A stretch of 64,000 nt of DNA, from positions 124,001 to 188,000 of the forward strand of contig JAGVTU010000017.1 of assembly GCA_019136655.1 (NCBI GenBank), written 5' to 3'. Each line of letters opens with the position of its first letter. Within the stretch, counting starts at the first letter, position 1. Positions 23,632 to 40,892 of the stretch are shown here, piece after piece. The notes under the pieces are model-generated. The model made no database searches and was not told the DNA's origin. It worked only from the letters and a program-made list of their open reading frames with translations. The position numbers and the translations under genes are program-made. The stretch comes from Bacteroidota bacterium. Its GTDB lineage: Bacteria; Bacteroidota; Bacteroidia; AKYH767-A; OLB10.

Positions 23632-24867
23632 ATGAAGGTGTTTATCAATATTAAAAAACTGGGTGGTGCAGGACATGCATCAGTGAAGAAGGGAAAAGAA
23701 ATGTCGGAATTTCATTACCTCGAAAATGCATTTATGTCCATCAGCAATGGGAAAATTGAAGACCTGGGGTTGATGAAAGATTATGATGCCGGTAAATTCA
23801 GCAAGTATGAAATAGTGGATGTAAAAGGAAGGTTTGTGATGCCGGGCTGGTGCGATTCGCATACTCATTTGGTTTATGCTGCTTCGCGTGAAGAAGAGTT
23901 TGTTGACAGAATAAATGGATTGACCTATGAAGCCATTGCCAAAAGAGGAGGAGGCATACTGAACTCTGCCAAAAAACTGGCTGCTGCTTCTGAAGAAGAA
24001 TTGTTTCAGTCGGCATGTGAGCGCATACAGTCCATGATTGCAAAAGGAACAACCTCACTTGAAATAAAAAGCGGTTATGGATTAAGTTTTGAAGGTGAAA
24101 TGAAAATGCTGAGAGTGATTAAGCGGCTGAAAGAGCATTTTCCTATGATTATCAAATCAACTTTTCTGGGTGCGCATGCAGTACCTGAGTCATTCAAAAG
24201 AAACAAGCAAGGCTACATTGATTTGCTTACGAATGAACTGATGCCTGCAATTAATGCTGAAAAACTTGCTGATTTTTGTGATGTGTTTTGCGAGCAAAAT
24301 TATTTCAGTCGTGATGAAACCATTCATATTCTCAGCGAAGCAAAAAAATATGGAATGATTCCAAAAGTTCATGCCAATCAGATGAGCAGTTCAGGAGGTG
24401 TGCAGGCCGGAGTAACCTGCAATGCCATCAGTGTTGATCATCTGGAATATGTAGGTGACGAAGAAATCAGTTTGCTCAAAGGCAGCAGCACCATGCCTGT
24501 GGTTTTGCCGGGAGCTGCATTTTTTTTAGGACTGCCACTGCCACCTGCGCGTAAAATGATAGATGCAGGATTGCCTGTGGCTGTTGCAACCGATTTTAAT
24601 CCCGGAAGTTCACCCACCGGTGATATGAATTTTATGGTAGCGTTATTATGTATTCAGTATAAACTTAATCCCGATGAAGCATTCAATGCAGCAACAATAA
24701 ATGCTGCTTATGCCATGGATGCAATAAGCGAAACAGGAAGTTTAAGTGTCGGGAAAAGGGCTGATTTTTTTATAACAAAACAAATACCTTCAACTTCGTA
24801 TATCCCGTATTCGTTCAATGAAAACACAATTGACGAAGTGTATATTGGCGGAAAAAAAGCACATTAA
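23632..24867 (+). CDS. hutI: Imidazolonepropionase
   Basis: Third step of histidine degradation: hydrolyses imidazolone-5-propionate to N-formimino-L-glutamate. A 411-residue amidohydrolase with the metal motif DSHTHLVYAASREEEF, KSGYGLSFEGEMKML, FLGAHAVPESF, KVHANQMSSSGG and the metal Asp in ATDFNPGSSPT. Length fits the family. It is followed after 3 nt by hutG and then ftcD. The first two enzymes, HutH and HutU, are not encoded in the window. Confidence 0.95.
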   Translation: MKVFINIKKLGGAGHASVKKGKEMSEFHYLENAFMSISNGKIEDLGLMKDYDAGKFSKYEIVDVKGRFVMPGWCDSHTHLVYAASREEEFVDRINGLTYEAIAKRGGGILNSAKKLAAASEEELFQSACERIQSMIAKGTTSLEIKSGYGLSFEGEMKMLRVIKRLKEHFPMIIKSTFLGAHAVPESFKRNKQGYIDLLTNELMPAINAEKLADFCDVFCEQNYFSRDETIHILSEAKKYGMIPKVHANQMSSSGGVQAGVTCNAISVDHLEYVGDEEISLLKGSSTMPVVLPGAAFFLGLPLPPARKMIDAGLPVAVATDFNPGSSPTGDMNFMVALLCIQYKLNPDEAFNAATINAAYAMDAISETGSLSVGKRADFFITKQIPSTSYIPYSFNENTIDEVYIGGKKAH

Positions 24868-24870
24868 TGT

Positions 24871-25935
24871 ATGAACCATCTTGTTATTTATACCAAACAG
24901 GATCTCCTGAATGAAACCCGTATCCGTGATAATGAAACTAAGGTAGGAGAAAATATGCAGGTGTTGCCTGATGAAGGCAATACTTTGTTGGAACGGTTAC
25001 AGAAATCAACAGCACGCTTTGTATTACTCGGATTACCTGAAGATATTGGCGTTAGAGCAAATTATGGTCGCGGTGGTGCTTACAGCGCATGGAAACCTGC
25101 ATTATTCAGTTTGCTGAATGTGCAGAGCAATATATTTGGTGATGGAAGTAATATGATGGTTTTAGGACATGTTGCTTTTGATGATCTGATGCTTGCTGCC
25201 GACAGTATCAACTTTAGAACTAAAAAAGGATTGGAAAAAGCACGTAAACTTGTGGCACAGGTTGATGAAAGAGTTATACCTGTCATACGTGATATTATCC
25301 GTTCGGGAAAAGAAGCAATCATCATTGGCGGTGGCCACAACAATTCATATCCCAACATCAGAGGAGCAGCTGAAGGACTACAACTTGCAGGTAAAATAAA
25401 ACATGCTGCAATTAACTGCATCAACAGCGATGCACATTCTGATTTTCGTGACATGGAAGGGCGACACAGCGGAAACGGATTTCGCTATGCGTTTGAAGAA
25501 GGATTTCTTAAAAATTACAGCATAGTAGGTCTGCATGAAAGTTACAATGCAGGCAATGTGCTTGATACAATGAATGCAGAGAAGAAAAGAATCTCGTTAA
25601 GTTTTTTCGAAGATATTTTTATACGCGAAAACATTTCGTTTAAAGAAGCTGTTCAGCAAGGTATCAGCCATGTGAATGACGGATACTGTGGTATTGAGAT
25701 TGACATGGACACGATTCAGAATATTCCTGCAAGTGCCCGTACTTCGAGTGGACTGAGCACTATTGATGCTAGAAAGTATGTAACATGGACGGCACAGAAT
25801 CTCAAAGCCTGTTATTTTCATATTGCTGAAGCAGCGCCTGTATTGTCACACATCAAAACCGACAACAAGAGTGGAAAACTGATTGGTTATCTGATTGCTG
25901 ACTATATCAAAGCAAGAATTTCAGCAGCAGAATAA
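24871..25935 (+). CDS. hutG: Formimidoylglutamase-like ureohydrolase (arginase family)
   Basis: A 354-residue manganese ureohydrolase. All six metal ligands can be placed: H156 (GGGHNNSY), D187, H189 and D191 (SDAHSDFR), D278 and D280 (EIDMDTIQN). The GGGHN in place of the arginase GGDHS is typical of the formimidoylglutamase side of the family. The GRHSGNGFRYA segment lies in the substrate region. Position between hutI and ftcD supports hydrolysis of N-formimino-glutamate to glutamate and formamide. Because ftcD handles the same substrate by another route, a different amidine substrate remains possible. Confidence 0.82.
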   Translation: MNHLVIYTKQDLLNETRIRDNETKVGENMQVLPDEGNTLLERLQKSTARFVLLGLPEDIGVRANYGRGGAYSAWKPALFSLLNVQSNIFGDGSNMMVLGHVAFDDLMLAADSINFRTKKGLEKARKLVAQVDERVIPVIRDIIRSGKEAIIIGGGHNNSYPNIRGAAEGLQLAGKIKHAAINCINSDAHSDFRDMEGRHSGNGFRYAFEEGFLKNYSIVGLHESYNAGNVLDTMNAEKKRISLSFFEDIFIRENISFKEAVQQGISHVNDGYCGIEIDMDTIQNIPASARTSSGLSTIDARKYVTWTAQNLKACYFHIAEAAPVLSHIKTDNKSGKLIGYLIADYIKARISAAE

Positions 25936-26094
25936 TTGTTTTCTCTTTTTTTCAGGAGGTGATTCTCAGTAAGTAACTTTAAGTTGTTAAAATTTAAAGC
26001 ATGCAGAGAGATTCAATATTACCTTTGTTTTTTTCTTTGTAAGATAATAGAGTTGAGGTTTGTTTATTTTGTAAGAAAATTATAATCCTTTTAT
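25936..26094. other. Intergenic region between hutG and ftcD
   Basis: 159 bp without ORF. It holds TACCTTTG at 26020-26027, a possible -7 element 67 nt before ftcD without a good -33. It also holds AGGAGGTGAT at 25954-25963, a Shine-Dalgarno-like string with no start codon at usable distance. Confidence 0.4.
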
Positions 26095-27777
26095 ATGATA
26101 CAATTAATTGAATGTGTTCCTAATTTCAGTGAAGGCAATGATCTGGGAATAATCAAACAAATAACAGATGCAATAGAAAGTGTTGAAGGCGTTAAGCTCC
26201 TGAATGTAGATCCGGGCAAAGCTACCAACAGAACTGTGGTAACTTTTGTAGGCACACCCGAAGCAGTTTGCGAAGCAGCATTCAGAGGTATTGCCAAAGC
26301 AACACAGGTAATTGATATGAGCAAGCATCATGGCGAACATCCGCGAATGGGTGCTACGGATGTTTGTCCTATGATTCCTGTTGCCAACATTTCAATGCAG
26401 GAAACAGCAGAGTGGGCACGTAAACTGGGGCAGCGTGTGGGCAAAGAATTAAAAGTTCCTGTTTATCTCTACGAAGAATCGCAACCCGATAAAAAAAGAA
26501 GTAATCTTTCTGTTATTCGTGCAGGAGAGTACGAAGGCTTTTTCAAAAAAATAAAACTACCGGAGTGGAAACCTGACTTTGGTCCGGCAGAATTGCCTGC
26601 GCAAAGCGGAGCCACTGTAATTGGTGCACGCGATTTTTTGATTGCTTACAATGTAAATCTGAATACCAAATCAGTAAAACGTGCCAACTCTATTGCATTT
26701 GATATTCGCGAAGCAGGAAGAGTAAAAACAGATGACAAGGGTAAAAAAATGCTTGATGCTGATGGCAAAGAAATTCGTATTCCGGGAAAGCTGAAAGGTG
26801 TTAAAGCCATCGGTTGGTATATCGAAGAATATGGTATTGCACAGGTGTCGATTAACATAACCAAATTCAGAGATACACCATTGCATATTGTTTTTGAAGA
26901 GTGTGCAAAAAGTGCTTTTGAAAGAGGTTATCGCGCCACCGGAAGTGAGCTGGTGGGGTTGGTACCATTAAGTGCCATGCTTGATGCAGGACGTTATTTT
27001 CTGCATAAGCAACGGTTGTCTTCAGGAGTGAGTGATGCCGAACTCATACATATTGCTGTGAAGTCAATGGGATTGGATGAACTTTCGCCATTTGATCCTC
27101 GTCAGCGAATTATTGAATATGTAATGGCTGATGATAAGTCGTCACCTCTGGTGAATATGAAATTGAATGCTTTTGCTGATGAAACTGCAAGCGAATCACC
27201 GGCTCCGGGAGGAGGATCTATCTCTGCCTATTGCGGAACCTTGGGTATTGCACTCGCAACCATGGTAGCCAACCTTTCTGCATCAAAAAAAGGATGGGAG
27301 ACAAGATGGAAAGAATTTTCAGACTGGGCTGATAAAGGACAGACGTTACAAAAACAATTACTTGCCTGCGTTGACGAAGATACTGTTGCATTCAATAAAA
27401 TTATGGATGCATTTAAACTTCCAAAATCCAGTGATGAGGAAAAAGCTGTAAGATCAAAAGCAATTGCAGAAGCAACACGTTATGCCATTGAAGTGCCATA
27501 CAAAGTGATGAAGCTCTCCTTGCAAAGTATGGAAATTATTCAGGCAATGGCTGAAACCGGAAACGCTAACTCTGTTTCGGATGCCGGTGTAGGAGCGTTG
27601 TGTGCACGAACTGCCGTTCTTGGTGCAGGACTCAATGTTCGTATCAATGCCATGTCGTATAACGACAAAGATTATGTGCAGGCCATTCTCACTCAGGTGA
27701 AGCAGATGGAAAATGATGCCATGACGGCTGAACAAAAGATTTTAAAAACAGTAAATGATAAGATTTCAGGCTTATAG
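26095..27777 (+). CDS. ftcD: Glutamate formimidoyltransferase / formimidoyl-THF cyclodeaminase fusion
   Basis: A bifunctional cytoplasmic enzyme of 560 residues. The first ~330 residues are the formiminotransferase (IECVPNFSEGND, SKHHGEHPRMGATDVCPMIP). The last ~210 are the cyclodeaminase (FADETASESPAPGGGSISAY, AETGNANSVSDAGVGALCA). Together they pass the formimino group of formiminoglutamate to tetrahydrofolate and release ammonia, giving methenyl-THF. The two-domain layout is that of the mammalian enzyme and of many Bacteroidota. It follows hutI-hutG after 159 nt. Confidence 0.95.
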   Translation: MIQLIECVPNFSEGNDLGIIKQITDAIESVEGVKLLNVDPGKATNRTVVTFVGTPEAVCEAAFRGIAKATQVIDMSKHHGEHPRMGATDVCPMIPVANISMQETAEWARKLGQRVGKELKVPVYLYEESQPDKKRSNLSVIRAGEYEGFFKKIKLPEWKPDFGPAELPAQSGATVIGARDFLIAYNVNLNTKSVKRANSIAFDIREAGRVKTDDKGKKMLDADGKEIRIPGKLKGVKAIGWYIEEYGIAQVSINITKFRDTPLHIVFEECAKSAFERGYRATGSELVGLVPLSAMLDAGRYFLHKQRLSSGVSDAELIHIAVKSMGLDELSPFDPRQRIIEYVMADDKSSPLVNMKLNAFADETASESPAPGGGSISAYCGTLGIALATMVANLSASKKGWETRWKEFSDWADKGQTLQKQLLACVDEDTVAFNKIMDAFKLPKSSDEEKAVRSKAIAEATRYAIEVPYKVMKLSLQSMEIIQAMAETGNANSVSDAGVGALCARTAVLGAGLNVRINAMSYNDKDYVQAILTQVKQMENDAMTAEQKILKTVNDKISGL

Positions 27778-30187: not shown

Positions 30188-30195
30188 TATTTTTG
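30188..30195 (+). promoter_or_regulatory. Putative -7 element of the ATP-grasp cassette
   Basis: TATTTTTG, 21 nt before the ATG. A TTG at 30161 lies 24 nt upstream, slightly long for a -33 spacer. Confidence 0.5.
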
Positions 30196-30216: not shown

Positions 30217-31215
30217 ATGAAAAAAATTGGTATTTTATTTGGGCAGGAAAATAGTTTTCCGCCTGCTGTTGTTGAACGTATCAACTCAAAAAATGTATCA
30301 GGAGTAATGGCTGAAGCTTTGATAGTGGATAAAGTGGTGCAAGGCGAAGCTATGGATTACGCTGTAATTGTTGACCGCATTTCACATGATGTTCCTTTCT
30401 ATCGTGGTATGCTCAAGAATGCAGCTATCTGTGGCACTGCAGTACTCAATAATCCATTCTGGAACAGTGCTGACGAAAAATTTTTCAATAACTGTCTTGC
30501 AACTAAAATTGGTGTTCCTGTACCAAAAACTGTTTTGTTGCCAAGTAATGTGCATCCACCTGATACCAATGCCAATTCATTCCGAAATCTTAAAATGCCT
30601 CTCGACTGGGAAAGCATTTTTAAGTACATTGGTTTTCCGGCCTACATGAAACCTTTTGCAGGAGGAGGATGGAAAAATGTGTATAAGTGTACCGACCCTG
30701 CTGACTTTTATACCAAACATCAGGAAACAGGGCAGCTGGTAATGCTGCTTCAGGAAGAAATTGTTTTCGAAAATTATTTCCGTTGCTATTGCATTGGAGG
30801 AAAGCGTATCAAGATTATGCGTTATGAACCACGCAATCCGCATCACTTACGTTATGTAGTTGAAGGCCCTCAGCCCGACCAGCGTATTTTAAATATTGTA
30901 GAAGAATATACATTTAAACTTTGTAATGCTTTAGGTTACGACATCAACACTGTTGAATTTGCAGTGCGCGATGGTATTCCTTATGCCATTGATTTCTGCA
31001 ATCCTGCTCCCGATGCCGACCGTCACAGCGTTGGCGAAGAAAACTTTAACTGGGTGATTGAAGCTGTCGCAGATATGTGTATTGAACGTGCTTTGGCACA
31101 TCAACCCGGAAAAGACAACCTTACCTGGGGTGCATATATCAAGCAGGCTGCACAGGGAAATATTGTAAGCAAGAGCAACATGGACTCTATGCTCGAAACG
31201 TATATGGTAAAATAG
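30217..31215 (+). CDS. ATP-grasp carboxylate-amine ligase
   Basis: A 332-residue RimK-like ATP-grasp enzyme. K145 (PAYMKPF) and the glycine-rich loop AGGGWKNVY are the ATP-binding signatures. LLQEEIVFENYFRCYCIGG is the central sheet. E247, D259 and N262 (TVEFAV, IDFCNPAPDAD) are the metal ligands. Such enzymes activate a carboxylate as acyl phosphate and join it to an amine. The N-terminal ~90 residues would bind the carboxylate substrate. First gene of a three-gene cassette with a GCS2-type ligase (14 nt downstream) and a class I amidotransferase-like protein. Substrate unknown. Confidence 0.85.
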   Translation: MKKIGILFGQENSFPPAVVERINSKNVSGVMAEALIVDKVVQGEAMDYAVIVDRISHDVPFYRGMLKNAAICGTAVLNNPFWNSADEKFFNNCLATKIGVPVPKTVLLPSNVHPPDTNANSFRNLKMPLDWESIFKYIGFPAYMKPFAGGGWKNVYKCTDPADFYTKHQETGQLVMLLQEEIVFENYFRCYCIGGKRIKIMRYEPRNPHHLRYVVEGPQPDQRILNIVEEYTFKLCNALGYDINTVEFAVRDGIPYAIDFCNPAPDADRHSVGEENFNWVIEAVADMCIERALAHQPGKDNLTWGAYIKQAAQGNIVSKSNMDSMLETYMVK

Positions 31216-31229
31216 TTTCAGGATAATTT

Positions 31230-32381
31230 ATGGTTTACTTAAAAAGGAAAATTAATCTCCCCGCATTTACCATTGGAATAGAAGAAGAGTTTCAGGTAAT
31301 AGACCCGCACACCAGAGAGCTTCGCTCGCACATGCATCAGATTGTTGAAGGTGGCAAAGTTGTTCTTAAGGAACAGGTAAAAGCCGAAATGCATCAGAGT
31401 GTAGTGGAAGTAGGAACCAACATCTGTAAAGATGTGAAAGAAGCACGCAAAGAAGTTACCTATCTGCGCCAGATGGTAGCCAAACTTGCCCACAAGCAAG
31501 GGCTTGTTATAGCTGCAGCAGGCACACATCCTTTTTCGCGCTGGCAGGATCAGCTTATCACCGACCATCCGCGTTACGAAGAAATTATTCGTGAAATGCA
31601 GGATGCAGCACGCAGCAATCTTATCTTCGGATTACACGTGCATGTTGGAATTGAAGACCGTGAAACAGGAATACGACTGATGAATCAGGCACGTTATTTT
31701 CTGCCACACATTTTTGCTTTGTCAACCAACTCTCCTTTCTGGGAAGGGCGTAATACAGGATTCAAGTCTTTTCGTACCAAGGTTTTTGATAAATTTCCCC
31801 GTACAGGTATTCCTGATGAGTTTTTCAGTGCTACGCAATATGATGATTACATCAAACTGCTCATCAAAACAAAATGTATTGACAATGCCAAGAAAGTATG
31901 GTGGGATATTCGCCTGCATCCTTTTTTCAATACCATTGAGTTCCGCATCTGCGATATACCCATGCGTATTGAAGAAACCATTACGCTTGCAGCCATCATG
32001 CAGGCCATCATTGCCAAACTCTACTGGCTGATGCAGTACAACCTGAGTTTCCGTACCTATTCCCGTGCCTTAATCAACGAAAACAAATGGCGTGCTGCCC
32101 GTTATGGAATCGAAAATAAACTCATTGATTTTGGAAAAGAAAAAGAAGTTGAAACCACTCAGCTTATTGAAGAGTTGGTAGAGTTTATTGACGATTTGGT
32201 GGATGATTTAGGCTCTCGTAAGGAAGTAAATCATGTTTTTGACATGATGAAAAAAGGTACCGGTGCCGACCGCCAACTGGATGTGTATGCCAAAACAGGC
32301 GACCTGAAAAAAGTAGTAGATTACATTATTAATGAAACTAATATTGGAATTAGCGTAAAAAAGGAAAAAAACAAAGCATGA
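31230..32381 (+). CDS. GCS2/YbdK-type carboxylate-amine ligase
   Basis: A 383-residue member of the glutamate-cysteine ligase 2 family. GIEEEFQVID (E18-E20) is the metal and ATP site signature; AEMHQSVVEVGTNIC, AAAGTHPFSRW and FGLHVHVGIED are family motifs. E. coli YbdK has weak glutamate-cysteine ligase activity, but the natural product of stand-alone family members is mostly unknown. It is flanked by an ATP-grasp ligase and overlaps the amidotransferase-like gene by 4 bp (ATGA), so the three are almost surely co-translated and act in one pathway. Confidence 0.88.
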   Translation: MVYLKRKINLPAFTIGIEEEFQVIDPHTRELRSHMHQIVEGGKVVLKEQVKAEMHQSVVEVGTNICKDVKEARKEVTYLRQMVAKLAHKQGLVIAAAGTHPFSRWQDQLITDHPRYEEIIREMQDAARSNLIFGLHVHVGIEDRETGIRLMNQARYFLPHIFALSTNSPFWEGRNTGFKSFRTKVFDKFPRTGIPDEFFSATQYDDYIKLLIKTKCIDNAKKVWWDIRLHPFFNTIEFRICDIPMRIEETITLAAIMQAIIAKLYWLMQYNLSFRTYSRALINENKWRAARYGIENKLIDFGKEKEVETTQLIEELVEFIDDLVDDLGSRKEVNHVFDMMKKGTGADRQLDVYAKTGDLKKVVDYIINETNIGISVKKEKNKA

Positions 32382-33214
32382 ATATAACACCAGTTCGCGT
32401 TGCTGTTCTCGATATGTATCAGGGCGAACCTAATGAAGGGATGCGCAATATAAAGGCAATCCTTGAACGATTTAAGAAGTTTATAGATTACACAGTTTAT
32501 GATGTGCGTACTGCATTTCAGGTGCCGGGTTTGGAGTATGACATCTATATTTCATCAGGAGGACCCGGCTGTCCGTTGCCGGTAGGTGAGGAGTGGGAGC
32601 AACCTTTTTTCAACCTGTGGGATTCGCTACTGGCACACAATGCCACTGAAGGCACACGAAAAAAGTATGCGTTTTTAATTTGCCATTCTTTTCAGATGAT
32701 GGCACATCATCTTGGTTTTGGAAAAGTAAGTGAGCGTCATTCACCTTCTTTTGGAATATTTCCTGTTCACAAAACCGAAGATGGATTTAAAGATTCGATT
32801 ATTGGCAGATTGCCGGAACCATTCTATGCAGTTGACTCCCGCGAGTGGCAGGTTACCACACCTGATATTGGTAAAATAGTGCAAACAGGAGGCAGTGTGC
32901 TTTGCCTTGAAAAAATAAGACCACATGTACCCTATGAACGTGCCATTATGGGAGTGCGTTTCAGCAATGAAATGCTGGGAGTACAGTTTCACCCGGAAGC
33001 AGATGCAGAAGGAATGTATCGTTACTTTGCACGACCTGATAAGAAAGAAAAAATCATTGAACATTACGGCTTGGACAAGTACAATGAAATGATTAATTCA
33101 CTCACCGACCCCAATAAAATTGAATTAACACATCATGCCATTATACCATGTTTTCTTTCAGATGCCATTGAGTATTTCTACCCGCAGTTAAGTTCTGTAG
33201 GTGTGAAAATATGA
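32378..33214 (+). CDS. Class I glutamine amidotransferase-like hydrolase
   Basis: A 278-residue GATase1-fold protein with triad C102 (FLICHSFQ), H205 and E207 (VQFHPEAD) and the oxyanion segment SSGGPGCP. The nucleophile elbow is atypical: Ser replaces the Gly usually found two residues after the Cys (C-x-G-x-Q), while the Gln is kept. There is no synthetase domain to accept ammonia. The C-terminal ~60 residues lie outside the fold and may bind a partner. In this cassette it could supply ammonia to a ligase, or hydrolyse a gamma-glutamyl or related amide as a peptidase. Confidence 0.82.
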   Translation: MNITPVRVAVLDMYQGEPNEGMRNIKAILERFKKFIDYTVYDVRTAFQVPGLEYDIYISSGGPGCPLPVGEEWEQPFFNLWDSLLAHNATEGTRKKYAFLICHSFQMMAHHLGFGKVSERHSPSFGIFPVHKTEDGFKDSIIGRLPEPFYAVDSREWQVTTPDIGKIVQTGGSVLCLEKIRPHVPYERAIMGVRFSNEMLGVQFHPEADAEGMYRYFARPDKKEKIIEHYGLDKYNEMINSLTDPNKIELTHHAIIPCFLSDAIEYFYPQLSSVGVKI

Positions 33215-33403: not shown

Positions 33404-33413
33404 ATTATATTTG
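33382..33413 (+). promoter_or_regulatory. tetR promoter
   Basis: TTTG (33382-33385), 20-nt spacer, TATATTTG (33406-33413), 20 nt before the ATG; it overlaps the second operator-like element. Confidence 0.75.
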
Positions 33414-33433
33414 TGCCGATAATTTGGAATATT

Positions 33434-34066
33434 ATGGCAGCTAAGAATAATGAGAAGTCAGCAGAACTCACAACAGAAGAAAGAATAAAAGAAGCAGCGC
33501 GCAAAGTATTTCACAGGAAAGGTTTTGCAGCTACACGTACCAGAGATATAGCTGATGAAGCAGGTATCAATCTTGCATTGCTTAATTACTATTTCCGCAG
33601 TAAAGAGAAGCTGTTTGAAATAATTATGCTTGAAACTTTATTTGGATTTATGCAAAGTCTTGCCTTAATTATGAATGATGAAAAAAGTACGCTTCAAACT
33701 AAGGTTGAACAGATTGCCTCAGGATATATAGACTTTATCATCGAGAACCCAAACGTTCCGTTATTTATGCTGAGTGAGATTAGAGCCAATTCAGGAGGAC
33801 TCATGAATAAACTTCCGATCAAGCAAATGGTATCGAATTCAGTATTTCTGAAACAGCACCGGAAAGCTGTTGAAGAAGGAAAGATTGCAGAGCCGCATCC
33901 TTTACACTTTTTAATGAATCTGCTGGGCCTGATTGTTTTCCCATTCATAGGTAAACCATTATTGCAGGGCATAAGCGGAGTGAGTGATCATCAGTTTAAG
34001 AAACTGATGATGCAAAGGAAGAAGTATATTCCGGTCTGGATTAACGCTATGATGAAAATAAGATAA
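33434..34066 (+). CDS. TetR-family transcriptional repressor of the efflux operon
   Basis: A 210-residue TetR regulator. The ATG at 33434 is chosen because the upstream in-frame GTG at 33413 is inside the -7 box. N-terminal helix-turn-helix: ERIKEAARKVFHRKGFAATR, then DIADEAGINLALLNYYFRSKEKLF. The C-terminal ~140 residues are the ligand-binding and dimerisation part. By analogy with CecR (YbiH) and the ybhGFSR genes of E. coli, it probably represses the downstream tolC-hlyD-ABC genes and itself through the AT-rich dyads, responding to an unknown toxic compound. Confidence 0.88.
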   Translation: MAAKNNEKSAELTTEERIKEAARKVFHRKGFAATRTRDIADEAGINLALLNYYFRSKEKLFEIIMLETLFGFMQSLALIMNDEKSTLQTKVEQIASGYIDFIIENPNVPLFMLSEIRANSGGLMNKLPIKQMVSNSVFLKQHRKAVEEGKIAEPHPLHFLMNLLGLIVFPFIGKPLLQGISGVSDHQFKKLMMQRKKYIPVWINAMMKIR

Positions 34067-34082
34067 AAATTATAAAAATTAG

Positions 34083-34112
34083 TTAATCAAATGATTAATA
34101 CAAATTATTAAT
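34083..34112 (+). promoter_or_regulatory. Operator-like dyad in front of tolC
   Basis: A perfect 16-bp inverted repeat TTAATCA-AA-TGATTAA (34083-34098) partly overlaps TTAATACAAATTATTAA (34095-34111). It lies between the tetR stop and the tolC start at 34123 and shares CAAATGATTAA with the site before tetR. Confidence 0.7.
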
Positions 34113-34122
34113 AATATAACGC

Positions 34123-35403
34123 ATGTCTGATTTCAAGTATAAATTCAAATTTCTGTGTGTATTACTCATAAGTAGTCATTTTGCTTCAGCTCAGAACAGT
34201 AAAAGTTTAACCCTTGCCGGATGTGTGGAGATGGCTAAGAAAAACTATCCTGTAGTAAAGCAATATTCACTGATAGAAAAATCCAATGGCTATTTAGTGG
34301 CAAATGCAAAAAAAGGTTATCTGCCCCAGTTTAATATTTCAGGTCAGGCAACCTATCAGTCAGATGTAACAGAAATACCGATTAATCTTCCGGGTTTGAA
34401 TATTCCGACAATGAGCAAGGATCAGTTCAGGATATATGGAGAAGTGTCGCAGTCTGTTACAGATCTTTTTACCATTAAAGATCAAAAGTCTTCTTTAAAT
34501 AATGCGAGTGATATAGAAGCTAAGAAGACAGAAGTTGAGTTGTATAAACTTAATGACCGCATAAACAATTTGTATTTCGGAATATTGCTGATTGATGCTC
34601 AGCTGAAGCAAAACCAACTGATTCAATCTGACATTCAGAGAGGAATTGAAAAAGTGAATGTTGCCATAGCCAACGGTGTTGCATTAAAAAGTTCAGCAGA
34701 TAATCTGCAAGCAGAATTACTGAAGGCACAGCAACATTCCATCGAATTAGAATCAACAAGGAAGGGATATGCTGATATGCTGGCATTGTTTATTGGTAAT
34801 CCAGTTGATGAAAATACAGTACTTGAAACACCTCAGATTTTGGTGCTTTCAGATTCAATTAATCGTCCTGAATTAAAAATTTTCGATTTGCAGTATAAAT
34901 CATATGAAATACAGAAGAAATTAGTCGCTGACAAAAACTACCCCAGGATAAGCTTATTTTTTCAGGGAGGATTAGGCAAACCCGGATTAGATATTCTGAA
35001 TACTAAGGTTGCAGATTATTATATGGGAGGAGTAAGGTTAAGCTGGAATTTTGCAGGACTTTATACATACAGAAATGAAAGAAGAATAGTTGATTTAAAT
35101 AAGAAAGCAACAGACATTCAACGCGAAACATTCATGTTTAATACCAATCTCACATTAAAACAACAAAACAGCGAAGTTCAGAAAATGCTGAGATTAATTG
35201 AAACTGACAAAAGTATAATTGCTCTGCGTGAAAAAGTAAAGTTAACGGTGCAAAATCAGCTTAGCTATGGCACAGCAACAACTAACGATTACCTAAAGGC
35301 GGTAAATGACGAAGACCAGGCAAAACAGAATAAGATACTGCACGAAGTACAGCTTTTAATGTCAGAATATAACACACAAATAGCGTTAGGAATTGAGAAT
35401 TGA
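34123..35403 (+). CDS. TolC-family outer-membrane efflux protein
   Basis: A 426-residue outer-membrane channel subunit with signal peptide (ending FASAQ, ~24) and two OEP repeats of long coiled-coil helices (residues ~30-230 and ~240-420). KNYPRISLFFQGGLGKPG is a typical segment at the start of the second repeat. It forms the outer part of a tripartite exporter with the HlyD and ABC-2 components encoded next. Its last codons (GAATTGAGAATTGA) lie in a repeat-like sequence shared in inverted orientation with the hlyD 5' end. Confidence 0.9.
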   Translation: MSDFKYKFKFLCVLLISSHFASAQNSKSLTLAGCVEMAKKNYPVVKQYSLIEKSNGYLVANAKKGYLPQFNISGQATYQSDVTEIPINLPGLNIPTMSKDQFRIYGEVSQSVTDLFTIKDQKSSLNNASDIEAKKTEVELYKLNDRINNLYFGILLIDAQLKQNQLIQSDIQRGIEKVNVAIANGVALKSSADNLQAELLKAQQHSIELESTRKGYADMLALFIGNPVDENTVLETPQILVLSDSINRPELKIFDLQYKSYEIQKKLVADKNYPRISLFFQGGLGKPGLDILNTKVADYYMGGVRLSWNFAGLYTYRNERRIVDLNKKATDIQRETFMFNTNLTLKQQNSEVQKMLRLIETDKSIIALREKVKLTVQNQLSYGTATTNDYLKAVNDEDQAKQNKILHEVQLLMSEYNTQIALGIEN

Positions 35404-35417
35404 AAGTGAACGATAAT

Positions 35418-36401
35418 ATGAAAATGAATTTAACCAAGAATAAATTAATTGCAATGAATACTGATAAAAAACTACTGAACAATAGAAGTGATTTTCACTT
35501 CTCAATTCTAAATTTTCCATTTAAAATACTTGCAATGGCAATTATTTTGTCGTCCTGCAACAGTAATAAAGTTTCATTTGATGCTTCCGGAAGTTTTGAA
35601 GCTGATGAAACCATTGTTTCCGCAGAAGCCACAGGAGTGATAAAAGAGTTTAATGTTGAAGAAGGTCAGCTTTTAAAATCAGGTCAGCTTATAGGTTATA
35701 TTGACAGCACACAATTGTATTTAAAGAAAAAACAACTGGAAGCTCAGGTTGCTGCGCTTAAAGGAAAAACTCCTGATATTCCGGTTCAGCTATCGGCTTT
35801 AAACCAACAATTGAAAACTGCCGAGAAGGAAAGAGACAGGGTTGTTAATCTAGTAAAGAATGATGCAGCAACCCCAAAACAACTGGATGATGCAAATGCA
35901 CAGGTGGAAGTTTTGAAAAGGCAGATAGAAGCTCAAAAATCTACTCTGAACATATCGAGCACAACTATTCAAAAAGATGTACTTCCGCTGCAAATGCAGA
36001 TTGAACAGCTGAATGATCAACTTGCAAAATGCAATATCATCAATCCGATAAATGGAACGGTTCTTTCCAAATATGCTGAAATGAATGAAATGACATCGGC
36101 AGGTAAACCACTTTATAAAATTGCTGATTTGACTTTTATCACATTACGTGCATACATCACAGGCAATCAGTTGCCGGAAGTTAAGTTGGATCAAAAAGTG
36201 AAAGTCTTAACAGATGATGGCAAAGGAGGCTACATAAAAACAGAAGGTACTATAACCTGGATCAGTGACAAAGCTGAATTTACTCCGAAAACCATTCAGA
36301 CAAAAGAGGAACGTGCAAATTTAGTTTACGCAATAAAGGTGAAGGTAAAGAATGATGGTACTTACAAAATAGGAATGTATGGGGAAATAAAATTTCAATA
36401 A
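35418..36401 (+). CDS. HlyD/YbhG-like membrane fusion lipoprotein
   Basis: Periplasmic adaptor linking the ABC permease to TolC. Candidate starts are TTG 35400 (overlapping tolC), ATG 35418 and ATG 35454; I use 35418 but 35454 gives a more normal signal. A lipobox IILSSC lies ~40-45 residues in. Next come a biotinyl-lipoyl domain (ATGVIKEFNVEEGQLLKSGQ), a coiled-coil hairpin (~residues 90-180) and a beta-barrel with INPINGTVLSKYAEMNE. The N-terminus before the signal is unusually long and is partly encoded by repeat-like DNA with an 8-bp hairpin (35484-35502). Confidence 0.87.
   Translation: MKMNLTKNKLIAMNTDKKLLNNRSDFHFSILNFPFKILAMAIILSSCNSNKVSFDASGSFEADETIVSAEATGVIKEFNVEEGQLLKSGQLIGYIDSTQLYLKKKQLEAQVAALKGKTPDIPVQLSALNQQLKTAEKERDRVVNLVKNDAATPKQLDDANAQVEVLKRQIEAQKSTLNISSTTIQKDVLPLQMQIEQLNDQLAKCNIINPINGTVLSKYAEMNEMTSAGKPLYKIADLTFITLRAYITGNQLPEVKLDQKVKVLTDDGKGGYIKTEGTITWISDKAEFTPKTIQTKEERANLVYAIKVKVKNDGTYKIGMYGEIKFQ
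35484..35508. repeat. Hairpin and inverted repeat within the hlyD 5' end
   Basis: AGAAGTGA-TTT-TCACTTCT forms an 8-bp stem with a 3-nt loop. The adjoining TTCTCAATTC (35499-35508) is the exact reverse complement of GAATTGAGAA at 35390-35399 in the tolC 3' end. Confidence 0.65.
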
Positions 36402-36403
36402 GA

Positions 36404-37318
36404 ATGGCAGACGTTGTATTAAATAACATTGTAAAGACCTACAATAAAGGCGAAGTAAAGGCGGTAAACGATGTTTCTTTTGAAGTAAGGAAAGGTGAGT
36501 TGTTTGGTTTGATTGGGGCAGATGGTGCCGGGAAAACAAGTATTTTCAGGATACTTACAACCTTGCTTTTGCCTGATAGTGGAACAGCTTACGTGGATGG
36601 TTGTGATGTTGTAAAAGATTATAAAACTATTCGCAAGAAAGTAGGTTATATGCCCGGTAAATTTTCACTCTATCAGGATTTGTCGGTTGAAGAGAACCTC
36701 CACTTTTTTGCCACGGTATTTGATACTACTGTTGCTGAAAATTATGATTTGATAAAGGATATATATGTACAGTTGGAGCCATTCAAAACACGAAGGGCTG
36801 GTAAATTATCAGGTGGAATGAAACAGAAATTGGCATTATGTTGCGCTCTGATTCATCGTCCAAATGTTTTGTTTTTAGATGAGCCCACCACAGGAGTGGA
36901 TGTGGTTTCGAGAAAAGAATTTTGGGAAATGCTGAAAGGCTTAAAACAGCAGGGCATTACTATTTTGGTTTCAACACCTTATATGGATGAAGCTACACTT
37001 TGCGAACGCATTGCATTGATTCAAAGCGGGAGCATGATGATGATTGACACACCCGACCAAATCATCAAAAAGTTTCCTGATAAATTATATGCAGTGAAAG
37101 CAAATAACATGATCCGCTTGCAAACTGAACTGCGAAACAATTCACAAATTAAGAGTTGCTATTCATTTGGCGACTATCATCACATAACAATGGAGAATGA
37201 GCAATTGACAATCGATAATCTGAGGGCTTCGTTACAGAATGAAGGGCTTTATAATTTGGAAGTAAAGGAAATTACACCAACGATTGAAGATTGTTTTATG
37301 AGTTTAATGAACAGATGA
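36404..37318 (+). CDS. ABC transporter ATPase (first half of split YbhF-type pair)
   Basis: A 304-residue nucleotide-binding subunit. Walker A is GADGAGKTS (Asp where Asn is common), Q-loop at YMPGKFSLYQD, signature LSGGMKQKL, Walker B VLFLDEPTTGVD, with a serine-type H-loop region VSTPYMDEA lacking the usual His. The C-terminal ~80 residues are a DrrA-type extension. MADVVLNNIVKTY starts 2 nt after the hlyD stop. In E. coli YbhF the two ATPase domains are fused; here they are separate genes. Part of the C-terminal extension (MENEQLTIDNL) is encoded by a repeat-like string. Confidence 0.92.
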   Translation: MADVVLNNIVKTYNKGEVKAVNDVSFEVRKGELFGLIGADGAGKTSIFRILTTLLLPDSGTAYVDGCDVVKDYKTIRKKVGYMPGKFSLYQDLSVEENLHFFATVFDTTVAENYDLIKDIYVQLEPFKTRRAGKLSGGMKQKLALCCALIHRPNVLFLDEPTTGVDVVSRKEFWEMLKGLKQQGITILVSTPYMDEATLCERIALIQSGSMMMIDTPDQIIKKFPDKLYAVKANNMIRLQTELRNNSQIKSCYSFGDYHHITMENEQLTIDNLRASLQNEGLYNLEVKEITPTIEDCFMSLMNR

Positions 37319-37352
37319 GAATGGAGAATTTCTTTCAACAAAAAAAAAGAAG

Positions 37353-38156
37353 ATGAAATTAAATAAGGATAATCCTAAATCTTTGTCAGCTGCCAACTCA
37401 CAATTGTCAGTTGAAAGGGAAGAGGTTATAAAAACAGATAAACTGACCAAACGTTTTGGAGATTTCGTTGCAACAAATCAAGTTACATTTGAAGTATATG
37501 CAGGTGAAATATTTGGTTTTTTAGGTGCAAACGGAGCAGGAAAAACTACTGCAATGAAAATGCTTTGCGGACTTTCAAAACCTTCGTCAGGTAATGCAAC
37601 CATTGCAGGGTTTGATATTTATAAGCAAACTGAGCAGATTAAGAAAAACATCGGCTATATGAGTCAGAAATTTTCATTGTATGATGACCTGACTATAGTG
37701 GAAAATATTCAATTCTTCGGAGGTATATATGGATTGTCTGACCAACAATTGAAAACAAAAAGTAATGAGTTAATAGAGACTTTAGGGTTGCAAAATGAAG
37801 CGAATAAATTGGTGAATTCATTGCCATTGGGATGGAAACAAAAATTAGCATTTTCAGTAGCGGTGTTACACGAGCCTCGTATCGTTTTCTTAGACGAACC
37901 AACAGGAGGTGTTGACCCGATTACAAGGCGTCAGTTTTGGGATTTAATTTATCAGGCTGCCGAAAAAGGGATTACCATTTTTGTGACAACTCACTATATG
38001 GATGAAGCTGAATACTGTAACAGAATTTCGATGATGGTTGATGGTGAAATAAAAGCACTTGACACTCCGGCTAACTTAAAACAAAAGTATGCAGTGAGTT
38101 CTATGGACGAAGTTTTTTATGAATTGGCAAGAGGAGCAAAAAGAGCAGTTAGCTAG
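37353..38156 (+). CDS. ABC transporter ATPase (second half of split YbhF-type pair)
   Basis: A 267-residue nucleotide-binding subunit with Walker A GANGAGKTT, Q-loop YMSQKFSLYDD, a degenerate signature LPLGWKQKL in place of LSGGQ, Walker B IVFLDEPTGGVDP and H-loop FVTTHYMDEAE. The altered signature is usual for the second domain of YbhF-type transporters, so one ATP site may be non-hydrolytic. The domain starts around residue 24; the preceding residues (SAANSQLSVERE) come from repeat-like DNA. The last three codons and stop lie in a repeat block that continues up to the next gene. Confidence 0.92.
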   Translation: MKLNKDNPKSLSAANSQLSVEREEVIKTDKLTKRFGDFVATNQVTFEVYAGEIFGFLGANGAGKTTAMKMLCGLSKPSSGNATIAGFDIYKQTEQIKKNIGYMSQKFSLYDDLTIVENIQFFGGIYGLSDQQLKTKSNELIETLGLQNEANKLVNSLPLGWKQKLAFSVAVLHEPRIVFLDEPTGGVDPITRRQFWDLIYQAAEKGITIFVTTHYMDEAEYCNRISMMVDGEIKALDTPANLKQKYAVSSMDEVFYELARGAKRAVS

Positions 38157-38196
38157 TGGCTATCAGTTAATAGCCAGCAGCCAAAAGCTAATAACC
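38148..38196. repeat. GCTAAT/AGCC-type repeat block upstream of the four-helix-bundle gene
   Basis: Degenerate units in both orientations (TTAGCTAG, GGCTATCAGTTAATAGCC, CAGCCAAAAGCTAATAACC). The block contains the stop codon of the preceding ABC gene. Similar units occur at 38558-38620. Confidence 0.65.
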
Positions 38197-38216
38197 AACA
38201 ATTTAAAAAAAGAAAA

Positions 38217-38606
38217 ATGAAAAACTATCAGGAATTAAATGTTTGGCAAAATGGAATTGAAATAGTGAAAGAAGTTTTCAGCTTATCCAAACAATTGCCT
38301 ATAACAGAAAAGTATGGAATGATTTCACAAATGACTCGTTTAGCCGTATCCATACCCGCTAACATTGCAGAAGGCAGCAGTCGGAACAGTGATAAAGATT
38401 ACGCTCGCTTTCTTCAGATTGCTTTAGGCTCTGCCTTTGAACTTCAAACTTATTTAGTGATAATAAAAGAATTGGAATGGGCAAATTCAGATTTAGAGAA
38501 ATTGGAATTATCATTAGAACAGGAAATTAAGATGATACACAGTTTCCTTAAAGCAATCAGCCAACAGCCTTTTGCTAATGATTATTCGCTAAAGGCTAAC
38601 AGCTAA
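38217..38606 (+). CDS. Four-helix-bundle protein, 23S rRNA-intervening-sequence (S23) family
   Basis: A 129-residue protein of the S23/IVP family (TIGR02436): LNVWQNGIEIVKEVFSL, ITEKYGMISQMTRLAVSIPANIAEGSSRNSDKDYARF and ALGSAFELQTYL are the family blocks of a four-helix bundle that forms pentamers. Related proteins are encoded inside 23S rRNA inserts, or serve as the Avd accessory of diversity-generating retroelements. Here it stands alone inside an efflux operon, between ATPase and permease genes. The last ~10 residues (NDYSLKANS) are encoded by the flanking repeat. No reverse transcriptase or rRNA is near. Function unknown; it looks like an inserted module. Confidence 0.88.
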   Translation: MKNYQELNVWQNGIEIVKEVFSLSKQLPITEKYGMISQMTRLAVSIPANIAEGSSRNSDKDYARFLQIALGSAFELQTYLVIIKELEWANSDLEKLELSLEQEIKMIHSFLKAISQQPFANDYSLKANS

Positions 38607-38620
38607 TATCTAAAAGCTAT
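38558..38620. repeat. GCTAAT/AGCC-type repeat block downstream of the four-helix-bundle gene
   Basis: Units CAGCCAACAGCC, TTTTGCTAATGATTATT, GCTAAAGGCTAACAGCTAAT and CTAAAAGCTAT. The block encodes the C-terminal end of the S23-type protein and ends 4 nt before the next permease gene. Confidence 0.65.
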
Positions 38621-38624
38621 CAAA

Positions 38625-39731
38625 ATGAAACAGTTTTTATCATTTGTTAAAAAAGAGTTTTTTCATGTTTTTCGTGATAAGAAATCATTGTTGATGTTAT
38701 TCGGTATGCCCATAGTTCAGATTTTGCTATTCGGTTTTGCTCTGACCAATGAGATAAAGAATGCTAAGATTGTAATTTGTGATTATTCAAATGATGCGGC
38801 CACTCAGCAAATCATCAACAAATTAGAGGCAAGTAAAAGTTTTGAAGTGCAACGAGTAGTGTCAGATCATTTTCAGATAGAAAATTCTTTTAAGTCAGGC
38901 GATATCAAACTCGTAATAATCTTTCCAGAAAATTTCAATCGGGATTTATTGCATCTGAATAGTGCACAGGTGCAGATTATTGCTGATGCTTCCGACCCAA
39001 ATGCTGCAAATACATTAACCGGCTACGCCACGAATATCATTAGGAGTTATCAGCAAGAATTAAGAAGCAATTCTTCGGCTCCGATTCAAATTGTTCCTGA
39101 AGTGCGGATGCTGTATAATCCTCAGTTAAAAGGAGCAACAAATTTTGTTCCCGGAGTGATGGCACTTGTGCTAATGCTTGTTTGCGTGCTGATGACATCT
39201 GTTTCCATCGTCAGGGAAAAGGAGAGAGGAACGATGGAAGTGTTACTGGTGTCGCCTATCAATCCTGTACTGGTGATTATTGCCAAAGCCATTCCGTATT
39301 TATTACTTTCAGTCATAAACTTAGTTGTCATCATTTTAATGAGCGTTACATTGCTGGATATGCCTGTAAACGGCAATATTGTATTGTTGTTTGTTGAAAG
39401 TATCCTGTTTATCATTACTGCTCTTGCATTAGGATTATTGATATCAAATTCAGTTGAATCGCAACAGTCTGCCATGCTGATATCCATGATGGGAATGTTG
39501 GTGCCAACAATGTTGTTTACCGGATTCATGTTCCCCATTGAAAATATGCCTGTTGCTTTGCAGTTAATCAGCAATATCATTCCCGCAAAATGGTATTATA
39601 TCATTGTAAAATCAATCATGATAAAAGGACTCGGATTAGCTTCGGTATGGAAAGAAACTTTAATTCTTACCATAATGGCCGCTGTTATTTTGGTAATAAG
39701 TTTTAAAAAATTTAAAATCAGACTTGAGTAA
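38625..39731 (+). CDS. ABC-2 type permease (YbhS-like)
   Basis: A 368-residue inner-membrane permease. One N-terminal TM (~20-40), a periplasmic domain (~45-170), then five C-terminal TMs. The cytoplasmic elbow motif VREKERGTMEVLLVSPI follows the second TM, as in ABC-2 permeases. FVKKEFFHVFRDKKSLLMLFGMP is the standard start of YbhS/YbhR proteins. It pairs with the following permease and the two ATPases to move drugs or other amphiphiles through HlyD and TolC. Confidence 0.92.
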   Translation: MKQFLSFVKKEFFHVFRDKKSLLMLFGMPIVQILLFGFALTNEIKNAKIVICDYSNDAATQQIINKLEASKSFEVQRVVSDHFQIENSFKSGDIKLVIIFPENFNRDLLHLNSAQVQIIADASDPNAANTLTGYATNIIRSYQQELRSNSSAPIQIVPEVRMLYNPQLKGATNFVPGVMALVLMLVCVLMTSVSIVREKERGTMEVLLVSPINPVLVIIAKAIPYLLLSVINLVVIILMSVTLLDMPVNGNIVLLFVESILFIITALALGLLISNSVESQQSAMLISMMGMLVPTMLFTGFMFPIENMPVALQLISNIIPAKWYYIIVKSIMIKGLGLASVWKETLILTIMAAVILVISFKKFKIRLE

Positions 39732-39770
39732 TTTATACGGTTAGTAGATGATTAATGAAAATTTAGACAG

Positions 39771-40892
39771 ATGCGTGAACTGAAATTTTTATTGCAAAAA
39801 GAGTTCAAACAGATTTTTCGAAACAAGGGTTTGCTGCCTCTGATTTTTGTAGTGCCTTTTGTGCAGTTACTTATACTGCCATTGGCTGCAGATTATGAAG
39901 TGAAAAACATCAACATTTCAATAGTAGATCAAGATCATTCTTCTTACTCGCAGCATTTGATTTCAAAGATTACATCTTCAGGATATTTCAAACTTGCAGG
40001 TTATGCCCCGACATTTAATGAGGGATTCAAGCAAATAGAAAATGGTCAGGCTGATTTAATACTGGAAATACCCACAGGTTTTGAACGAAATTTAATTCGT
40101 GAGAATCAACAAAAATTATTTATTGCCATCAATGCCATCAATGGTGTTAAGGCAGGATTAGGCGGTAATTATCTTTCTCAGATAATCTCTGATTATAACA
40201 GCGATATCCGCGTGCAATGGATTCGGCCCGGAAGGTTCAAGGAAGCACCAACCATACAGTTGGTATCATCAAACTGGTTCAATCCATTTATGAACTACAA
40301 TTATTTTATGGTTCCGGGAATCCTGGTTGTGTTGGTCACCATGGTAGGCTCCTACATGTGTGCTTTAAATATTGTTAAAGAAAAAGAAGCAGGAACAATT
40401 GAGCAAATCAATGTAACACCCATAAAGAAGTATCAGTTTGTATTAGGAAAACTGATTCCATTCTGGATTATTGGTATGATGGTTTTTACTATTGGTTTGT
40501 TCATTGTAGCACGACTGGTTTATGGTATTGTTCCGGTGGGAAGTGTATTGCTTTTGTATGGATATCTGGCAATATATCTGATAGCATTATTAGGCTTGGG
40601 ATTACTCATTTCAACATTTGCTGAAACACAACAGCAGGCTATGTCAGTAGCATATTTTTTTATTATGATATTTATGCTGATGAGCGGATTGTTCACCCCA
40701 CTTGACGGAATGCCGCAATGGGCTTATGTAATTGCCAAAATTAATCCTGTTACTTATTTTATTGATGTGGTGCGAATGATCATTCTCAAAGGAAGCGATT
40801 TTTCAGATTTGGTTTATCACTTTACAATTATGACAGGATTTGCCTTAGTGCTGAATGGTCTTGCTATTTGGAACTACCGTAAAACGAGTTAA
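39771..40892 (+). CDS. ABC-2 type permease (YbhR-like)
   Basis: A 373-residue paralogue of the preceding permease with the same layout: N-terminal TM after LLQKEFKQIFRNKGLLP, periplasmic domain ~50-170, then five TMs with the elbow motif VKEKEAGTIEQINVTPI. The pair probably forms a heterodimeric channel. Last gene of the efflux operon. A 311-bp stretch follows with a small ORF but no clear terminator. Confidence 0.92.
   Translation: MRELKFLLQKEFKQIFRNKGLLPLIFVVPFVQLLILPLAADYEVKNINISIVDQDHSSYSQHLISKITSSGYFKLAGYAPTFNEGFKQIENGQADLILEIPTGFERNLIRENQQKLFIAINAINGVKAGLGGNYLSQIISDYNSDIRVQWIRPGRFKEAPTIQLVSSNWFNPFMNYNYFMVPGILVVLVTMVGSYMCALNIVKEKEAGTIEQINVTPIKKYQFVLGKLIPFWIIGMMVFTIGLFIVARLVYGIVPVGSVLLLYGYLAIYLIALLGLGLLISTFAETQQQAMSVAYFFIMIFMLMSGLFTPLDGMPQWAYVIAKINPVTYFIDVVRMIILKGSDFSDLVYHFTIMTGFALVLNGLAIWNYRKTS

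Follow-up and report, generated by a model that had tools for sequence, protein, structure and literature searches.

Gene neighborhoods in which an amide-forming ligase adjoins a thiol peptidase were described by Iyer, Aravind, and colleagues, who proposed peptide synthesis by systems that place a GCS2 or glutamine synthetase-fold ligase beside a peptidase of the GATase fold (PMC2588565). As a general kind, the non-ribosomal amidoligase operon with a GATase-fold peptidase is already known. The locus analyzed here resembles the system set out in the relevant passages of that paper in having a carboxylate-amine ligase next to a GATase-fold hydrolase, and differs from it in that the ligase treated in those passages is of a different family and comes from proteobacteria and firmicutes. 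A second relative is E. coli YbdK (PDB 1r8g), which has gamma-Glu:Cys ligase activity and is homologous to the middle protein of our locus; unlike YbdK, this protein falls in the NF010039 subfamily and is encoded inside a multi-ligase cassette. The full gene set discussed below, EST1-AG1-GCS2-GAT-F5, was not found described in a full-text literature search, and a 2009 amidoligase survey that lay outside this search may list it.

Layout and conservation of the trio

The window, by which we mean the whole 64,000-nucleotide stretch of Bacteroidota DNA that was analyzed, contains three consecutive genes (C2:154217-157214 in this genome), hereafter the trio, and a candidate upstream element:

30188..30195, + strand: candidate Bacteroidota -7 promoter element (TAnnTTTG), TATTTTTG, identified by motif presence
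30217..31215, + strand: AG1, a RimK/LysX-like ATP-grasp ligase of 332 aa, identified by a RimK-family match and a predicted ATP-grasp fold
31230..32381, + strand: GCS2, a YbdK-type carboxylate-amine ligase of 383 aa, identified by PF04107, NF010039, and PDB 1r8g
32378..33214, + strand: GAT, a Cys hydrolase of the class I amidotransferase fold, 278 aa, identified by PF00117 at its cut-off, predicted fold, and triad

As initially annotated, the three open reading frames lie on one strand, with a 14-nt gap between AG1 and GCS2 and a 4-bp overlap between GCS2 and GAT. The -7 element that had been placed ahead of them is present 22 nt 5' of the AG1 ATG, but the motif is no commoner than chance, with 58 occurrences in the window against 80 expected (no enrichment). 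Because of this, and because the closest TTG 5' of TATTTTTG is 24 nt distant, our grading of a promoter role for the candidate element stops at plausible.

Gene order was compared in 100 AG1 loci sampled across the phylum, examined with up to 9.8 kb on each side and spanning 34 taxonomic families, and in the 80 nearest named loci, which include Pedobacter, Algoriphagus, Belliella, Flavobacterium, Sediminibacterium, and Saprospiraceae. AG1 is followed by GCS2 in 55 of the sampled loci, the contiguous AG1-GCS2-GAT order occurs in 29, and most loci examined from the window's own family carry the contiguous trio. EST1, a predicted esterase, precedes AG1 in about 49 of the 100, and F5, a candidate ligase, and GAT are linked to it in about 48 and in 45, respectively. 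The corresponding counts in the 80 named loci are 73 for GCS2 (AG1-GCS2 adjacency), 48 for GAT, 46 for F5, and 47 for EST1, with a divergent second esterase in 53. The proposal that these genes form a conserved order is borne out by these counts, and rare adjacency, which would have spoken against it, is refuted. In its fullest form, EST1-AG1-GCS2-GAT-F5, the cassette is a single run with small gaps at many loci, and a further esterase lies close by.

Co-occurrence was scored in 296 Bacteroidota genomes, counting AG1 at E below 1e-25. AG1 was found in 107 of them, and its orthologs retain 57-71% identity between distant families; such identity, combined with presence in about one third of the sampled genomes, is the pattern of a useful, old pathway. 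F5 is almost always accompanied by AG1 (88 of 91 F5 genomes, phi 0.84), EST1 occurs in 104 of the 107 AG1 genomes (phi 0.83), and GAT shares a genome with AG1 in 69 of 70 cases, covering 69 of the 107. The initial annotation had treated the three genes as the whole unit, a view that these associations do not support, since F5 and EST1 co-occur with AG1 and lie outside the window. Judged by gene content and order, the trio belongs to a larger multi-enzyme set, also conserved, of which it forms the core. In this genome, EST1 (C2:44673-45374) is unlinked to the trio at a distance of about 109 kb, and F5 (C13:99007-100194) is alone on contig C13 and likewise unlinked.

The putative ligases and EST1

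AG1 matched no family above cut-off in a Pfam search. Its best profile and fold group consists of the RimK/LysX alpha-L-glutamate or aminoadipate ligases: against NCBIfam it matches rimK_fam (E = 8e-8) and LysX (E = 6e-6), and the closest fold to its predicted structure is RimK (Z 15.0, 250 aligned residues, 3.6 A rmsd), followed by LysX/ArgX and then graspetide ligases, the model having a pLDDT of 70.6 from a shallow alignment of 8 sequences. It differs from these enzymes in scoring only 32 bits against TIGR00768 (RimK-family alpha-L-glutamate ligase), where the subfamily cut-off is 143, and in having no sequence-level match to a solved structure, either from the sequence alone (at E 0.1) or in a profile search (below E 0.05). 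By its profile score, AG1 is a distant relative of the TIGR00768 family that lies outside its membership.

GCS2 matches PF04107 (E = 2e-65) and is a firm member of the NCBIfam family NF010039, "carboxylate-amine ligase," scoring 555 bits where the cut-off is 371; the control genomes, E. coli and Caulobacter among them, stay under this value. Residues 12-320 align with the YbdK structure 1r8g (E = 5.5e-50), glutamate-cysteine ligases are among its family relatives in the NCBIfam matches, and it is the sole copy of its type in this genome. Active-site alignments were built with orthologs from the 80 named and 100 phylum-sampled loci. AG1 residues K145, E247, D259, and N262 are unchanged in 180 of 180 orthologs, and the GCS2 positions E18-E19-E20, E53, E60, H136, H138, R228, E237, and R239, which are nearly all of the Glu, His, and Arg positions compared, are fixed in 126 of 126. 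We take these residues, from general family knowledge, to be the ATP and metal ligands, and the conserved GAT residues described below to be catalytic; this supports the earlier claim that both ligases retain intact ATP and metal ligands.

F5 (395 aa) is a candidate for a second ATP-grasp-type ligase. Neither Pfam nor NCBIfam returned a match above cut-off, hence no substrate lead, and its sequence-level leads are confined to the pre-ATP-grasp model of glutathionylspermidine synthase (E = 0.003, in 1 of 2 F5 proteins) and the structure of the acid-amine ligase YgiC. The first of these is below the Pfam cut-off and the second is at E = 0.8; F5 is a distinct family, and its profile assignment as a ligase is weak. 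In the nearest relative of this genome (G001:C48:72521-73710), F5 was matched in two pieces (query 2-126 and 131-394), which suggests a frameshift or an assembly error. EST1 is an alpha/beta-hydrolase of family PF00756 in which the Ser, Asp, and His residues are invariant.

The hydrolase slot and the proposed pathway

GAT reaches PF00117 with 22.8 bits, exactly the cut-off value. Its predicted structure (pLDDT 80.5, from a shallow alignment of 5 sequences) matches 1o1y at Z 21.2 and gamma-glutamyl peptidase 1 (GGP1; 9k7l) at Z 21.1, and GGP1, amidotransferases (1o1y, DnfC), and homoserine acyltransferases all fall within about 1 Z of one another. The Cys-His-Glu triad noted at the outset is real, with C102, H205, and E207 kept in 91 of 91 orthologs, and the oxyanion SGGP motif is intact. 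Arabidopsis GGP1 and the class I glutamine amidotransferases share this fold and triad with GAT, but identity to them is about 12-16%, and their G-x-C-x-G nucleophile elbow is absent from all 91 orthologs. Nearly all of these have I-C-H-S-[FY]-Q instead, and the residue at C+2 is Ser in every one.

In 6 genomes from 5 families (G133, G295, G311, G095, G291, and G248), the cassette is associated with a clade of Peptidase_M29 proteins (64.7 and 55.8 bits in the 2 proteins scanned, cut-off 27), and in 5 of these 6 the M29 gene occupies the GAT slot itself, giving GCS2-M29-F5. This clade is found in 6 of 36 genomes without GAT versus 0 of 44 with it (Fisher p = 0.006, uncorrected for relatedness). 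A quick AG1 tree places M29 carriers (f35, f43, and f51) nested in a GAT-bearing clade, and its starred branches force at least 3 changes of label. This replacement, together with the GGP1-like fold and the non-canonical elbow, makes hydrolysis the better account of GAT: as far as sequence and modeled structure indicate, a role as peptidase or gamma-glutamyl hydrolase is likelier for it than the supply of ammonia. Because GAT is missing in 38 of the 107 AG1 genomes, most of which also lack the M29 replacement, the hydrolase would be either dispensable or substituted by another protein.

On balance, we think it somewhat probable that the three genes form the center of a Bacteroidota-wide pathway to a small, soluble, peptide-like metabolite, probably of the gamma-glutamyl type. 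GCS2 would convert a carboxylate to its acyl phosphate and couple it to an amine, the group so activated probably being the gamma-carboxylate of glutamate; the RimK/LysX-like ligase AG1 would add a further residue; and F5 might form a third acid-amine bond, so that these proteins together could account for up to three amide-forming steps. GAT would cleave an amide of an intermediate or of the finished compound, in maturation or recycling and without feeding ammonia, and EST1 would act as a Ser hydrolase upon the same compound. The model takes as given the protein families, intact active sites, conserved gene order, co-occurrence, and GAT-to-M29 replacement, all of which are read from sequence; from there we infer the substrates, the order of the steps, the direction of the hydrolase GAT, and a product that is small and not attached to protein. 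The gamma-glutamyl nature of the carboxylate is suggested by analogy with the usual activity of the GCS2 family. A peptide-like or gamma-glutamyl compound with trimming, as first envisaged, fits this model, but the two bonds and three genes then allotted to it are too few. The addition of F5, EST1, and M29 gives a concrete gene set for asking which small molecule is made. More tentatively, and in our estimation possible rather than probable, the product could be a phylum-wide orphan metabolite built by three non-ribosomal amide ligases and processed by interchangeable, unrelated peptidases (a GATase-fold Cys hydrolase or M29), perhaps a new general-purpose cofactor, protectant, or conjugate.

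If GAT were instead a true glutaminase, the ammonia it supplied could lead to an amidated peptide, by a logic like that of the osmolyte N-acetylglutaminylglutamine amide. The GATase fold, the intact triad and SGGP motif, the PF00117 score at cut-off, and fold matches tied with the amidotransferases 1o1y and DnfC would all suit such an enzyme, but the glycine of the C-x-G elbow is replaced by Ser in all 91 orthologs, and the M29 metallopeptidase that fills the same slot in other lineages cannot, by any known chemistry, supply ammonia from glutamine. Since a swap of a glutaminase for a metallopeptidase is unexpected, whereas a peptide-cleaving step is replaceable, the earlier suggestion of an ammonia supplier is disfavored, and we consider this reading unlikely. 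The cassette might alternatively make a glutathione-like low-molecular-weight thiol, with GCS2 forming gamma-Glu-Cys and either AG1 or F5 extending it by one residue; the glutamate-cysteine ligases among the relatives of GCS2 and the faint similarity of F5 to glutathionylspermidine synthase point that way. AG1, however, is matched by RimK and LysX models, with no glutathione synthetase model among its NCBIfam matches at E 0.1, so that in a comparison with gshA/gshB the GCS2 part is there and AG1 is not GshB-like, in keeping with the earlier statement that standard glutathione genes do not fit the trio. No Cys-specific enzyme is linked to the cassette, and BshC, of bacillithiol synthesis, is present in 290 of the 296 genomes, this one included, all of which makes a thiol product quite unlikely. 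Replacement of bacillithiol by the cassette was considered separately and rejected: with bshC near-universal, an anticorrelation is impossible, and the cassette is unlikely to stand in for a missing thiol.

Catabolic use of an amine, in which GCS2 would gamma-glutamylate the amine and GAT would later hydrolyze the product as in PuuA/PuuD-type pathways, shares the logic of a ligase with a GATase-fold hydrolase, and the resemblance of the GAT fold to gamma-glutamyl hydrolases would agree with it. We nevertheless judge it quite improbable, given the two or three ligases of the cassette and recurrent neighbors that include no linked oxidase, dehydrogenase, or aminotransferase. The closest folds to AG1, namely RimK, LysX/ArgX, and then the graspetide ligases, would also be compatible with modification of a protein or ribosomal peptide by RimK/LysW-type tagging, the other enzymes acting on the tag; this has very little probability in our view, as neither a small carrier protein nor a precursor peptide is conserved among the recurrent linked families (ORFs of at least 90 aa).

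Variant clusters and lineage-specific neighbors

In 14 of the 100 sampled loci, from 9 families, and also at L136, L138, and L142, AG1 is followed by a circularly permuted ATP-grasp protein of family PF14403. GCS2 and F5 are missing from these clusters, GAT comes next in 13 of the 14, and most have a further esterase. Some operons, among them some of family f10, have the form AG1-GAT-F5 without GCS2; for those at L182, L175, and L195, a search for GCS2 in the respective genomes (G104, G198, and G077) gave no match at E 1e-60. Remoter AG1 relatives with 35-46% identity occur without the cassette at L143, L144, L145, and L146 and may have a different function.

Histidine-degradation genes lie near AG1 in several lineages. 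Upstream of the trio, and separated from it by a patatin-like gene, the window carries an ftcD-fchA fusion together with hutI and a formiminoglutamase-like gene, hutG (23632-27777); among the family-f1 loci examined, this block is common only to the near-identical genome G001, and its position beside the trio is probably a coincidence. In 8 of 8 f29 loci (L206, L207, L209, L210 in genome G099, L211 in G141, L213, L214, and L218), the gene that immediately follows AG1, in the same orientation, is hutH (histidine ammonia-lyase), and hutG/hutI are close to one f9 locus. These neighbors were judged lineage-specific, and a link to histidine degradation or a histidine-derived product was rejected. 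Just 3' of the trio, at 33413-40892, the window contains an efflux operon (TetR, TolC-like, and HlyD-like proteins, 2 ABC ATPases, and 2 ABC-2 permeases), whose families are absent among those recurrently linked to AG1 elsewhere. Recurrent near the cassette in some families are Asparaginase_2 proteins and a PF13535 ATP-grasp protein, the latter matching BacD/DdaF-type dipeptide ligases weakly.
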